In this document: in pieces, positions 9,356 to 16,958 of the stretch
How positions within the stretch are numbered: position 1 is the stretch's first letter
Layout: every line of letters starts with the position of its first letter
NCBI GenBank assembly: GCA_902805915.1
Contig: CADCUO010000005.1
Coordinates: forward strand, 1-40,728
Reading direction: 5' to 3'
DNA from: an uncultured Propionibacteriaceae bacterium
GTDB lineage: Bacteria; Actinomycetota; Actinomycetes; Propionibacteriales; Propionibacteriaceae
DNA: 40,728 bases
Translations under genes and position numbers: made by a program
The notes under the pieces: model-generated
The model's database searches: none
What the model was told of the DNA's origin: nothing
Seen by the model: only the letters and a program-made list of their open reading frames with translations

Positions 9356-10513
9356 TCAACGCAGGGTCTTGGCCATTCTTACGATGGGCACACCTTCGGG
9401 GTCTACATCGCGGCCGGTCTCGACATACCCACGCCTGAAGTAGAAGGAGATGTTCGCGGCGCTGAGGGCGCCGGTGACCAGCCGGCAGTGGGTAGCGTCG
9501 CCAGGGGCCAGGGCTTCGATGGCGTCCATGAGCCGGCCGCCGATGCCTTGGCCGCGCAGGTCGGGCGCAACCATCAGCCGACCCACGTACCAGGATCCGT
9601 CCGCGGTTACCTCGCCACGGACCGAACCCACCAGTCGTCCGTCCCGGCGGGCGGTGAGCACGACGCCTTCATCAAGAGCGGCACGCAGCTGCGGCAGGGT
9701 CTCGGTCAGCGGCGGGATGTCCAGGGACCCGTTCAACCGACCCTCTGGCAGGAAGGCGGCCTGCTGGAGGGTGTACAGCTCCCCGGCGTCCGCCGCGGAT
9801 GCGGTCTGGATCACCAAGTCCCCCCGCATCAGGTCTGGACGACGCTCCCGGGTGGTGGCCAGCGCCTGTTCCCGACGCCAGGCCGCGATCCGTCCGTGGT
9901 TGCCGGAGAACAGGATCTCCGGGACGTCCTGACCTCGCCAGCTCGGCGGCTTGGTGTAGACCGGGTACTCCAGCAGCCCCTGGTGCGCCCCCGAGTGGGA
10001 CTCCTCCGTCAACGAGTTCGGGTTGCCGACCACACCGGGCAGCAGCCGGACGATCGCCTCGATCATGACCAGCGCGGCGGCCTCCCCTCCGTTCAGCACG
10101 TAGTCGCCGATGCTGATCTCGTCCACCCGCATCCGGGTTGCAGCGTGCTCGGAGACGCGGGCGTCAATCCCCTCATAGCGTCCGCAAGCGAAGATCAGGT
10201 GCGGCTCGGTGGCGAGCTCGTCGGCCACTCGCTGGGTGAACTGCCGCCCCGACGGGGTCAGGACGATCAGCCGTGGGTTCTCGCTCTCCCCCACCAGAGT
10301 GTCCAGGGCCTCCCCCCACGGCTCCGGCTTCATCACCATCCCGGCACCGCCCCCGTACGGGGTGTCGTCGACGGTGCGGTGCCGGTCGTCGGTCCACTGC
10401 CGCAGATCGTGGACGACAAGATGGACCAAACCGTTCTCGATCGCCTTGCCCACCAGCGACAGGCGGAGCGGCGCCAGGTACTCCGGGAAGATGGAGACTA
10501 CGTCCAGGCGCAT
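9356..10513 (-). CDS. trmD: tRNA (guanine37-N1)-methyltransferase fused to a C-terminal GNAT acetyltransferase domain
   Basis: TrmD motifs: [63 protein letters not shown]. From about 9829 down to 9359: [28 protein letters not shown]...[15 protein letters not shown] (GNAT). Confidence 0.93.
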
Positions 10514-12129: not shown

Positions 12130-12984
12130 TCAGCTGGTGATGTCTTTGCGCAGGAAGTGCCACACCGCCAGCCCGATGAGCACCACCGCGTAGCCGACCG
12201 ACCACAGCGCTCCGGTCACCATGTCGGAGTAGTCCACAGTCGCCGACAGTGCGTCCGCCCAGGCATACGCGTAATGCCCGGGCAGACCTTCCCGGATGCC
12301 GCCGAGCGCGGTGATGGAGTCCAGGATGGCTGACAGGATCATCAGCAGCACCGCCCCGCCGACGGCCGCGAGCGGCGCGTCGGTCCAGACGCCGAGCGCG
12401 AACGCGAACGACGCCACCACCAACAGGCTGACCAGCAGGTAGCCGGTGATGAGCAGGAGCCGCCAGCCGAACTCGGGCCAACCGATCTGCTCGCCGGTGG
12501 GACCGACATACGGGCCCCACCCGTACGCCAGGCCGCCGACCAGCAACGTCCAGGCCGGCAGCAGCACCAGCGCGGCAATGGAGAACAGGCCGGCGACGAT
12601 CAGCTTCTGCCTGAGCAGCCGCTCGCGCGGGACGGGCGCAGCGAGGAGGTATCGCAAACTGGACCAGCTGGCCTCCGAGGGAACGGTGTCGCCGGCGAAC
12701 AGCGCGACCACCACGATCAGCAAGAAGCTGGTGGAGGCGAACAGGGCGAAGACGACCAGGTTGGCACCGCTCTCCTGTGCCAGGTCGACGAAACCGCGGG
12801 CGCCGGAGTCGCTCTCGTCGTCGCCGAGCGCGAAGGCTCCGAGCAAGATCAGCGGCAGGGCCAGCACAACCAGAAAGATGCCCTGGGTGCGGCGTCGCCG
12901 GAGCTGTCGTCTAATCTCAGCCCGCAACGGCAGCGCCTTGGCCGCGGGCCGTGCCGGAGACCGAGCCGCGAAGCGGTCAGGCAT
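12130..12984 (-). CDS. ABC-2-type transporter permease
   Basis: About six hydrophobic segments; ATG at 12984 overlaps the 3' end of the upstream ABC-ATPase fusion (stop 12979..12977). Confidence 0.82.
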   Translation of the reverse strand: MPDRFAARSPARPAAKALPLRAEIRRQLRRRRTQGIFLVVLALPLILLGAFALGDDESDSGARGFVDLAQESGANLVVFALFASTSFLLIVVVALFAGDTVPSEASWSSLRYLLAAPVPRERLLRQKLIVAGLFSIAALVLLPAWTLLVGGLAYGWGPYVGPTGEQIGWPEFGWRLLLITGYLLVSLLVVASFAFALGVWTDAPLAAVGGAVLLMILSAILDSITALGGIREGLPGHYAYAWADALSATVDYSDMVTGALWSVGYAVVLIGLAVWHFLRKDITS

Positions 12985-15862
12985 GGCTTGGCCCCGCAGC
13001 GGCGCGGTCGAGCTCAGCTGCACTGGGAGCGTCCGTGGCGTCCGTGTCTTGTCCGGGCGGACCTACCAGGGTGAGGAAGACCTCCTCCAGCTGGCGGCGT
13101 CCGTCGACCGACTCGATCGGCTGGCCGGCCTCCACCAGCCGAGCAACCAGATCTGCCCGGGGCACGTTCCCCGTTGCTCGGATGACTCCGTCCTCGACCA
13201 GGGTGTCGACTCCCTGCCGGCGCAGGATTGCCGCAGCGGCCTCCGGGTCCCCGCTGGCCCCCAGCCGGATCAGCGTGACGTCGTCACTGGCGGTCAGCTC
13301 CGCCATCGACCCCGTCAGGATCACGGTGCCCCGGTGCATCACCACCACGTGGCTGCAGGTCTGCTCCACCTCCGACAGCAGGTGGCTGGAGACGACCACG
13401 GTCCGCCCGCTGGCGGCGTACTCGGCCAGCACCGAACGCATCGCCTTGATCTGCGGCGGGTCGAGGCCGTTGGTCGGTTCGTCCAGCAGCAGCAGCGACG
13501 GAAGCCCGAGCATGGCCTGGGCGATGCCGAGCCGCTGCCGCATCCCCTGGCTGTAGCCGCGAACCCGGCGGTGGATCGCCGACCCCAGCCCGGCAATCTC
13601 CAGTGCCTCCTCCAGAAGAGCCTCCTCAGCGGGGCGACCTGTGGCCTGCCAATACGCCTCCAGGTTCGCGTATCCGCTCAGGTGCGGCAGGAAGCCGGGC
13701 CCCTCGATGAACGCCCCCACCGAGCCGAGGACGTCGGCGCCGGGATGGACAAGCTGGCCGTGGACATAGACGGCACCGGAGTCTGGACGGATCAGGCCCA
13801 CGAGCATCCGCATGGTGGTGGTCTTGCCGGCGCCGTTCGGGCCGAGCAGCCCGACCACCTGGCCAGCCGCTGCGGCGAAGGAGACGCCGTCGACAGCGCG
13901 GAACCCGTCACCGTAGGTCTTGGTCAGGTCCTGCACCAGCAACGGGATATCCCGCAGGTCGTCGCGGGGATGGGCGCTACGCCGACGGAGCCACAGGAGC
14001 ACCATCGCACCGATCCCGACCAATAGCAGCGCGGCGACGACCACGACCAGCGGTAGCGGGACGTTCAAAGTGGACGCCGCCAGTGTGGTGCCCGGCAGCC
14101 GCGGCAGCACGAGCTCCCGAGGTCCGGTCAGGTCCACTCGGTACACCCTGGTCGCGGCCGGTACGGCGTAGGCCTGGTCGGTGCTGGACACCACAACCTG
14201 CAGCCGGTGCCCCACCGGAACCTGATGTGCCACCGGCGGGAGCGCGATCCGTACGTTCTGCGGCGTGTTGGGGCGGAGTCCTTCCAGGTACACCGGTGAC
14301 AGCGCCAATCCGGGGAGGACCGCCGTAGCGGGGGCGGCAGGAGCGCCGTCGGTCGCGACGGTGTCCGGACCGAGGTCCCACAGGGAGACGAACACGGAAG
14401 CCTGTCCAGCAGATGAGGTCAGGGTCAGCTCGACGCTGCCGCTGCCGGCCAGGGTGACCGGCTCGGTCACCGGTGCTGTGGTGAACGTGGCCGACTGCCC
14501 TGGCAGCACTCCGAGGGCGTATCCGCCGACGCCGGACACGCCGCCCAGCGCTCCACCGGTGCCCGGCAGGTTGGTCAGCGCGGCCGGTGTCCCACCCGGT
14601 GGGGAGAGCAAGGTCTGCGCCGTCCCGGTCAGCGGATACGTCTGGCTCTGCACCGCCAGCTCCCGGCCGGGATAGCTGGCCGTGGCCAGCACTTGCGGTT
14701 CCTCGTCCCGGTCTCGAGCCACCAGCGATGTCCGTGGCACCGCCACCCGGAAGGAGGTGTCCGGAGCGGAGCCGTCCTTTTTCAGGTACCGGCCGAACCA
14801 CGCCTGCATGTCGGGCAGCAGCGAGTCGAGGTCGATCTCGGTGTCGTGTCCGCCGTCCACCCAGGCCATCGCGGCCGGCGTGGTCTTGGGCAGGCCGCGC
14901 AGGTTGGCGTCCGCGTGGTCGAGCGGGAACAAGGTGTCGTCCTCACCCTGGATCAGCAAGGTCGGTGCTGTGATGGCGGAGAGCAGCCGGTCCGGGTTGG
15001 ACCGGTTCAGCAGCGTGATCAGGGAGGGGTCGGGTCGGCCGGACTCGGCGGTACGGAGGTAGCCGCGGCACAGCTCAGCAGTGAACCGGCCGCAGACGGC
15101 GGGACTGGAGCCGCCGCCTGCAGCTTGGTCCTGGTCTGCTGAGGAGGAGCTGCGACCGCCGGCGCCGAGGAAGAACAGCGACGCCCACCGCTGCTTGAAC
15201 ACCCCGGTCTGCGGCACCGAGCGCACCTCAGCCAGCGAGGCCGGCGGCGCGGTCACCGCGTACTGCGGGAACAGGGCGTGGCTGAGGCGATTCCAGGTGA
15301 AGGCCGGAGCGATGGCGTCGACCCGGGGGTCGAGGCCGGCTGCCAGCAGGGATATGGCGCCACCGTACGAGGCGCCGGCGAAGCCGATCACCGGGTCGCC
15401 GGCCTCCTTGACCACCTCGGCGCGGGCCGCTGCGAGGTCGACCACCCTGCGGGCGTCCGCACCCTCGAACGCCGGGTCGTTGAGGTGGATCCGGCCGCCG
15501 GAGGCACCGAACCCGCGGGCGGTGTAGGTGATCACCGTGTAGCCGTCCCGGGCCAGGGAACGACCGATGGCCGCGCTGTCGATCTTGGTGCCGCCGAAGC
15601 CGTGGGCCAGCACCACCGCCGGTTTCGCGACCGCCGCGTCGGTGGTGAGAAGTGAGACGTCGAGCTGGACCTGTTGGCCGTCCGGCTCCGCGGCGCCGGT
15701 GATCTGTAGCTCCGTCTCGGTGACTGTGAGCTCGTGGTCATCGGCGGCAGCGGCGGAGGGGATCCAGGCGAGCATCACCGCTGCCAGAGCCGCTGCCACC
15801 GCCCGGTGGCAGCGGTTCCGGCGTGGGACCCGGCGGCTCCGGCTAGCCAACGAGGGCGCCAC
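12977..15862 (-). CDS. Secreted alpha/beta hydrolase (CocE/X-Pro dipeptidyl-peptidase-like) fused through one TM helix to a DrrA-type ABC transporter ATPase
   Basis: Signal peptide RAVAAALAAVMLAWIPSAAAADD; LAHGFGG; nucleophile GASYGG; QGEDDTLFP; GGHDTE; X-Pro-like C-terminal beta domain; TM LPLVVVVAALLLVGIGAMVLLWLRRR (about 13985-14065); ABC GPNGAGKTT, YSQGMRQRLGIAQAM, LLLLDEPTNGLDPP, VVSSHLLSEVE. Confidence 0.9.
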   Translation of the reverse strand: MAPSLASRSRRVPRRNRCHRAVAAALAAVMLAWIPSAAAADDHELTVTETELQITGAAEPDGQQVQLDVSLLTTDAAVAKPAVVLAHGFGGTKIDSAAIGRSLARDGYTVITYTARGFGASGGRIHLNDPAFEGADARRVVDLAAARAEVVKEAGDPVIGFAGASYGGAISLLAAGLDPRVDAIAPAFTWNRLSHALFPQYAVTAPPASLAEVRSVPQTGVFKQRWASLFFLGAGGRSSSSADQDQAAGGGSSPAVCGRFTAELCRGYLRTAESGRPDPSLITLLNRSNPDRLLSAITAPTLLIQGEDDTLFPLDHADANLRGLPKTTPAAMAWVDGGHDTEIDLDSLLPDMQAWFGRYLKKDGSAPDTSFRVAVPRTSLVARDRDEEPQVLATASYPGRELAVQSQTYPLTGTAQTLLSPPGGTPAALTNLPGTGGALGGVSGVGGYALGVLPGQSATFTTAPVTEPVTLAGSGSVELTLTSSAGQASVFVSLWDLGPDTVATDGAPAAPATAVLPGLALSPVYLEGLRPNTPQNVRIALPPVAHQVPVGHRLQVVVSSTDQAYAVPAATRVYRVDLTGPRELVLPRLPGTTLAASTLNVPLPLVVVVAALLLVGIGAMVLLWLRRRSAHPRDDLRDIPLLVQDLTKTYGDGFRAVDGVSFAAAAGQVVGLLGPNGAGKTTTMRMLVGLIRPDSGAVYVHGQLVHPGADVLGSVGAFIEGPGFLPHLSGYANLEAYWQATGRPAEEALLEEALEIAGLGSAIHRRVRGYSQGMRQRLGIAQAMLGLPSLLLLDEPTNGLDPPQIKAMRSVLAEYAASGRTVVVSSHLLSEVEQTCSHVVVMHRGTVILTGSMAELTASDDVTLIRLGASGDPEAAAAILRRQGVDTLVEDGVIRATGNVPRADLVARLVEAGQPIESVDGRRQLEEVFLTLVGPPGQDTDATDAPSAAELDRAAAGPSHA

Positions 15863-16958
15863 GGAGGATCACGTGCGACGGCCGGCGGAGGATTCCGAGG
15901 TCGACCCGAGGGTCGCTGCCGAAGACGACCAGGTCTGCCGACACACCATCGCAGAGCGTGTCGGGTTGGCCGAGCCAGCGCCGCGCCCGCCACGACCCGG
16001 CACCAAGGGCGTACTCGGGGGAACAGAACTGTGCCATTGCGGCCATTTCCGACCCAACCAGACCGTGCGGCTGGTATCCGCCGGCGTCGGTGCCTGCGTA
16101 CATCGGTACGCCGGCGTCCAGGGCCTGCCCGAAGCGCTCCAGCCGACCGGCGTACAACGAGCGCATGTGCTTGGCGTACGCCGGGAACTTGGCCTCCCCT
16201 GCGGCTGCGAACGACTCGAAGTTCTCCAGCTGGATCATGGTGGGCACCAGCGCTACCTGTCGGTCCGCCATGGTGGCGATGCTGGCGTCGGTCAGACCGG
16301 TGCCGTGCTCGATCCCGTCGATGCCGGCAGCGACAAGCTCAGCCAACGCCTGCTCACCGAAGACGTGCGCGGTGACCCGCGCCCCGAGCTCGTGCGCGCG
16401 GGTGATGGCGGCCGTGGCCACATGTTGGGGCCACAGCGGAGCGAGGTCCCCGGTGTCTCGGTCGATCCAGTCGCCGACAAGCTTGACCCAGCCGTCACCG
16501 GCGGCGGCCTGACGCTCGACAGCGGTGACCAGCTGGTCTGGCTCCACCTCGTCGCCATAGTGACGGATGTAGCGCCGAGGCCTGGCTATGTGCCGGCCTG
16601 CCCTGATGATCCGGGGCAGGTCCACCCGGTCATCGATCCAGCGGGTGTCGGCCGGCGACCCGGCGTCTCGGAGCAGCAGCGCCCCGGCGTCCCGGTCGGC
16701 CACCGCCTGCGCCTCCGAGGTCTCGTCCGGCACTGCTCCGGCGGCGTCCAGACCCACGTGGCAGTGCGCGTCGACCAGGCCGGGCAGGATGAACCCGTCC
16801 GCGACGATGGTTTCGGCGTCTGCCACCGGCTCCGTCCGGACCACACCGTCCACCACCCAGATGTCTCGGCGCTCGCCGTCGGGCAGCACCGTCCCGCTGA
16901 GATGCAGTCGGGGCAGTTGCCGTCGGGACAGGCGCGATCGGGGCCCGGTCACCGGCAC
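15843..16958 (-). CDS. Amidohydrolase family protein (imidazolonepropionase/prolidase-like metal-dependent hydrolase)
   Basis: ILPGLVDAHCHVGLDAAG (HxH), VTAHVFGEQALAELVAAGIDGIEHGTGL, MYAGTDAGGYQPHGLVGSEM. Confidence 0.88.
   Translation of the reverse strand: MPVTGPRSRLSRRQLPRLHLSGTVLPDGERRDIWVVDGVVRTEPVADAETIVADGFILPGLVDAHCHVGLDAAGAVPDETSEAQAVADRDAGALLLRDAGSPADTRWIDDRVDLPRIIRAGRHIARPRRYIRHYGDEVEPDQLVTAVERQAAAGDGWVKLVGDWIDRDTGDLAPLWPQHVATAAITRAHELGARVTAHVFGEQALAELVAAGIDGIEHGTGLTDASIATMADRQVALVPTMIQLENFESFAAAGEAKFPAYAKHMRSLYAGRLERFGQALDAGVPMYAGTDAGGYQPHGLVGSEMAAMAQFCSPEYALGAGSWRARRWLGQPDTLCDGVSADLVVFGSDPRVDLGILRRPSHVILRGALVG

Follow-up and report, generated by a model that had tools for sequence, protein, structure and literature searches.

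Does a single gene in the window, the 40,728-nucleotide stretch of DNA analysed here, join an extracytoplasmic hydrolase to the ATPase of an ABC transporter, and what might such a protein do at the membrane? An open reading frame at 12977 to 15862 on the minus strand, which carries all of the window features described below, runs without interruption from a GTG at 15862 to a TGA at 12977 and encodes 961 amino acids. Its product consists of a signal segment, an alpha/beta hydrolase, a PepX_C domain, a transmembrane (TM) helix, and an ABC ATPase, an arrangement supported by the open frame, Pfam, and 63 relatives. A sequence-only reading of the locus had proposed a single chain of this kind, and both the frame check, which found no stop, and the matches of the parts to Pfam models and hydropathy bear this out. 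The fusion, the signatures of both of its active sites, a partner permease, and inheritance shared across the phylum can all be read directly from the genomes.

Only two segments of the protein exceed the hydropathy threshold. The first (residues 21 to 39; 15746 to 15802) is the putative signal segment; the earlier suggestion of a signal peptide holds to the extent that this hydrophobic stretch and an A-x-A pattern are present, the call having been made from these two features and not with a dedicated predictor. The hydrolase core (residues 65 to 328; 14879 to 15670), defined by Pfam and residue conservation, matches Peptidase_S15 at residues 65 to 315 (E = 4e-12; 46.8 bits against a gathering score of 23) and Hydrolase_4 at residues 79 to 327 (E = 1e-14, also above its gathering score). 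It contains S165 (GASYGG) and D309 (GEDD), along with C257 and C265, and the predicted catalytic triad is completed by H339 (GGHD), which lies just past the core. The Pfam models and the triad place the protein in the peptidase S15 superfamily; distant members match these models too. The X-Pro-type beta domain recognized earlier is a PepX_C domain (PF08530; residues 455 to 569; 14156 to 14500) with an E value of 1e-18 and 68.1 bits against a gathering score of 22.5.

The second hydrophobic segment (residues 605 to 623; 13994 to 14050; hydropathy of 3.11) is the single TM helix, and it is followed by WLRRR, consistent with the helix and RRR stop of the sequence-only reading. The ABC ATPase domain and its C-terminal extension occupy residues 639 to 935 (13058 to 13948), with a match to ABC_tran at residues 658 to 798 (E = 2e-26, above the gathering score). 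In 54 of 62 fused proteins, the net charge is higher after the TM helix than before it. Hydropathy and charge together predict that the hydrolase is outside the cell and the ATPase inside. A full-length structure model, built from a four-row alignment, had a mean pLDDT of 39.8 and was unusable.

The assembly from which the window comes is fragmented (250 contigs; 84% complete), so it is the relatives that decide whether the fusion is real. A junction artifact, in which two genes were joined by assembly error or by a chance open frame, had been named as a possible refutation, and the state of this assembly would allow it. We looked for such an artifact in 63 relatives gathered from across the Actinomycetota, one of them a Propionibacteriaceae metagenome-assembled genome (MAG). 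All have the same fused frame, and the open fusion is also found in single-contig genomes, which makes an artifact extremely improbable; we reject it. By our own count from the hydrolase match table, about 100 of 395 sampled genomes of the class have a hydrolase match with an E value of ≤1e-105 within a frame of at least 790 amino acids. At all 30 of the loci fetched from that sample, one frame encodes both the hydrolase and the ATPase, and the permease gene follows immediately downstream; the same is true of 11 fused loci from other parts of the phylum. Recurrence of the fused frame is thus far beyond chance. A scan of contigs by short exact peptides gave just two usable relatives. One plasmid record from Tsukamurella lists an “alpha/beta fold hydrolase” and, overlapping it by four bases, an “ABC transporter permease.”

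In the window, the gene downstream of the fusion (12130 to 12984) encodes an ABC-2 permease. Its ATG at 12984 lies within the end of the fusion gene, giving an 8-nt overlap (ATGCCTGA). Matches to PF12679 and PF12730 above cutoff and six TM segments predicted from hydropathy, in keeping with the approximately six of ABC-2 permeases, place it in that superfamily. The permease gene is directly downstream of the fusion at 61 of 64 loci. One of the three other cases is at a contig end, and in the remaining two (G004 and G009) the contig that carries the fusion also carries an orthologous permease with 66% identity, at a distance of about 53 and 62 kb, respectively. Unrelated transporter-like permease genes are nearer to the fusion than this ortholog in both genomes (G004:C21 and G009:C1; loci L038 and L042). 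Five genomes of the same genus that lack the fusion have only permease paralogs of about 30% identity. Furthermore, trees of the hydrolase, the ATPase, and the permease have 29 to 38 of 54 splits in common, against at most 3 in shuffles, an agreement that shows coinheritance and that could reflect species inheritance alone. Overall, conservation, co-occurrence, and gene adjacency strongly support the partnership with the adjacent permease that had been proposed.

On its other side, the start of the fusion gene overlaps the end of a gene encoding an amidohydrolase (15843 to 16958; Pfam), which lies between ffh and the fusion and is also beside the fusion in most relatives from the same genus. 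The usual order in that genus, including in single-contig genomes, is ffh, amidohydrolase, fusion, permease, rimM, trmD, and in the window the close spacing or overlap of the first four makes them locally resemble one operon. The amidohydrolase is absent from the neighbors of the fusion in other families; it is local operon context and not part of the conserved module. A survey of about 30 loci, based on our own gene calls with open reading frames of at least 60 amino acids, revealed no common family among the first genes upstream or downstream and thus gave no sign of a dedicated cargo or regulator gene. Since the other neighbors vary, the conserved unit is the fusion plus the permease. Within the same neighborhood, the gene for the tRNA methyltransferase TrmD (9356 to 10513) appears to be a fusion that adds a GNAT acetyltransferase domain at the C terminus, with Pfam matches at residues 22 to 226 and 277 to 384, and relatives from the same genus, such as L032, match both parts.

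Conservation was examined in 64 fused proteins, comprising that of the window and the 63 others. S165 is retained in 62 of the 63 proteins that cover the site, the exception being on a frameshifted MAG contig (L030), and D309, H339, C257, and C265 are each found in 63 of 63; the Ser-Asp-His triad named in the sequence-only reading is thereby upheld. On the ATPase side, K680, S771, G773, D794, E795, and H827, representing the Walker A, signature, and Walker B motifs and the switch histidine, are present in all 64. The Walker A motif, signature, Walker B glutamate, and switch histidine are therefore complete, as in an ABC-2 exporter ATPase. Average pairwise identity over the ATPase reaches 65%, compared with 55% over the hydrolase core, 42% over PepX_C, 25% over the linker, and 23% over the TM helix. 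Between the end of the TM helix and the Walker lysine, there are 55 to 147 residues (median, 59). Judged from these alignments, strong constraint acts on the two active sites, and what connects them behaves as a tether.

This pattern bears on the mechanical coupling between ATP hydrolysis inside and the hydrolase outside that had been suggested for the locus. Poor conservation of the TM helix and linker and the varied linker length speak against rigid force transfer, so a rigid lever acting through the TM helix is disfavored; mechanical coupling is not shown, and the values above fit a tether better. Direct mechanical coupling through the surface of the permease is possible, yet the linker does not favor it. 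Overall, we consider it quite unlikely that the fusion is a phylum-wide single-chain machine whose outside hydrolase is gated or driven directly by ATP hydrolysis in the cytoplasm, which would make it an ATP-powered surface enzyme within the motor subunit of a transporter.

A related possibility is that little or no cargo is moved and that conformational changes of the permease, powered by ATP, switch the outside hydrolase on and off. There are analogues for such an arrangement: FtsEX switches cell wall hydrolases, and NosFY acts on NosD, so that in both FtsEX and NosDFY an ABC engine is paired with an extracytoplasmic protein. The strict conservation of both active sites together is what such a switch would lead one to expect, and NosF, which works in a complex with an extracytoplasmic partner, is among the nearest bacterial ATPases of solved structure. 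The partners in NosDFY and FtsEX are separate polypeptides with other folds; here there is no separate NosD, and the part outside the cytoplasm is a hydrolase that belongs to the fusion itself. Against such a switch, the TM helix and the linker are among the least conserved parts, with a linker of varied length, and hydropathy indicates that the permease lacks a large extracellular domain able to grip the hydrolase. An enzyme switched by ATP is thus an unlikely reading.

Among 26 other ATPases from five genomes, the fused ATPases form one clade of their own, with support of 100/99. Long fused frames account for 46 of the 47 best-scoring ATPase matches (E ≤ 2e-114) in the class sample, and after a wide gap the ordinary ATPases start at an E value of 1e-89. 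The one exception (L193; 6160 to 8642 of that locus) is an ATPase of the fused clade that stands on its own, with a permease but no hydrolase attached, which indicates that the hydrolase is dispensable for the existence of the transporter; its genome (G121) encodes a separate unfused hydrolase elsewhere (L117). Because L193 branches among the fused ATPases, with moderate support, loss of its hydrolase is possible but unproven. In the hydrolase tree, 18 rows of unfused hydrolases group together, apart from the fused ones, with support of 99/100, and the label changes outside this main pattern involve a mispicked open reading frame (L116_u) and a frameshifted fragment (L030_u). Two proteins of the same hydrolase family (L142, 4271 to 6916, and L143, 4310 to 7270) have three C-terminal CWB2 repeats in place of the TM helix and ATPase. 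Such cell wall-binding repeats on some unfused relatives support an outside location for the hydrolase.

These relatives, which are apparently secreted or cell wall bound, raise the prospect that the fused hydrolase works independently on substrates in the envelope or the medium and that fusion to the ATPase only holds it at the membrane. The poorly conserved linker would suit such plain anchoring. A bare TM anchor, however, would need no fully conserved ATPase, and the retention of the fusion in nearly all members of the ATPase clade and the co-occurrence of the permease also count against it. We regard this explanation as rather unlikely.

The ATPase had been called DrrA/CcmA-type. It is a complete ABC ATPase, and its best-matching TIGR models are those of drug and lantibiotic exporters (TIGR01188 and TIGR03740), but it does not reach the cutoff of the DrrA model TIGR01188 (172.3 bits against 312.45), the lantibiotic protection model TIGR03740 (169.6 against 309.75), or the CcmA model TIGR01189 (98.7 against 131.6). 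Exporters of the DrrAB, BcrAB, and LanFEG types share the two-gene layout and the ABC2_membrane permease with this pair. Their ATPases are soluble, as to our knowledge are all known DrrA-type ATPases, whereas the ATPase of the fusion is anchored by a TM helix of its own and carries a hydrolase on the outside. X-Pro dipeptidyl-peptidase, cocaine esterase, and alpha-amino acid ester hydrolase share with the fusion an alpha/beta hydrolase joined to PepX_C, the G-x-S-Y-G-G motif, and the Ser-Asp-His triad; these S15/PepX_C enzymes lack an ATPase, and the likeness of the fusion to solved members is partial. The label of peptidase is not established, because the S15 and S33-type Pfam models score alike and the best solved-structure matches are with lipases and esterases, which the catalytic half resembles more.

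The nearest functional parallel that we found is in lantibiotic resistance operons, which serve peptide resistance by encoding an NSR peptidase along with a BceAB-like transporter, as separate genes for an S41 peptidase (PF03572) and an FtsX-like permease (PF02687) with a two-component system (PMC8003753). Joint encoding of a peptidase and an ABC transporter is the point of likeness. In this pair, however, Pfam gives S15/PepX_C and ABC2_membrane in place of S41 and FtsX-like domains, and the hydrolase and the ATPase form one chain. In the part of the open-access literature that was covered, no description of a hydrolase-TM-ABC ATPase architecture was found, so the architecture may be undescribed.

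The reading that we prefer, with a probability of roughly 50%, is that of a two-gene ABC-2 exporter in which the membrane-anchored ATPase would carry a tethered surface serine hydrolase that cleaves the substrate as it emerges. By analogy with other ABC-2 systems, two fusion chains and two permeases would form one transporter, which would place two hydrolase domains around its outer mouth. The permease may use ATP to export a substrate that bears an ester, amide, or peptide bond and is probably membrane soluble, and the tethered hydrolase could cleave it on emergence, either maturing an exported product or inactivating a toxic compound against re-entry. The TM segment would then act as a tether, setting position and stoichiometry, and not as a rigid rod that transmits force.

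If this is true, one polypeptide combines the export of a substrate with its chemical conversion in about one-quarter of the sampled Actinomycetes genomes, and two strictly conserved active sites predicted to be on opposite faces of the membrane could reveal a general route for resistance, envelope function, or export processing. Genomes that carry the fusion range in size from 1.3 Mb to 11 Mb. Several genomes of family f29 are without the fusion; two others in that family (G064 and G335; loci L099 and L098) have kept it in genomes of 1.3 to 1.5 Mb.
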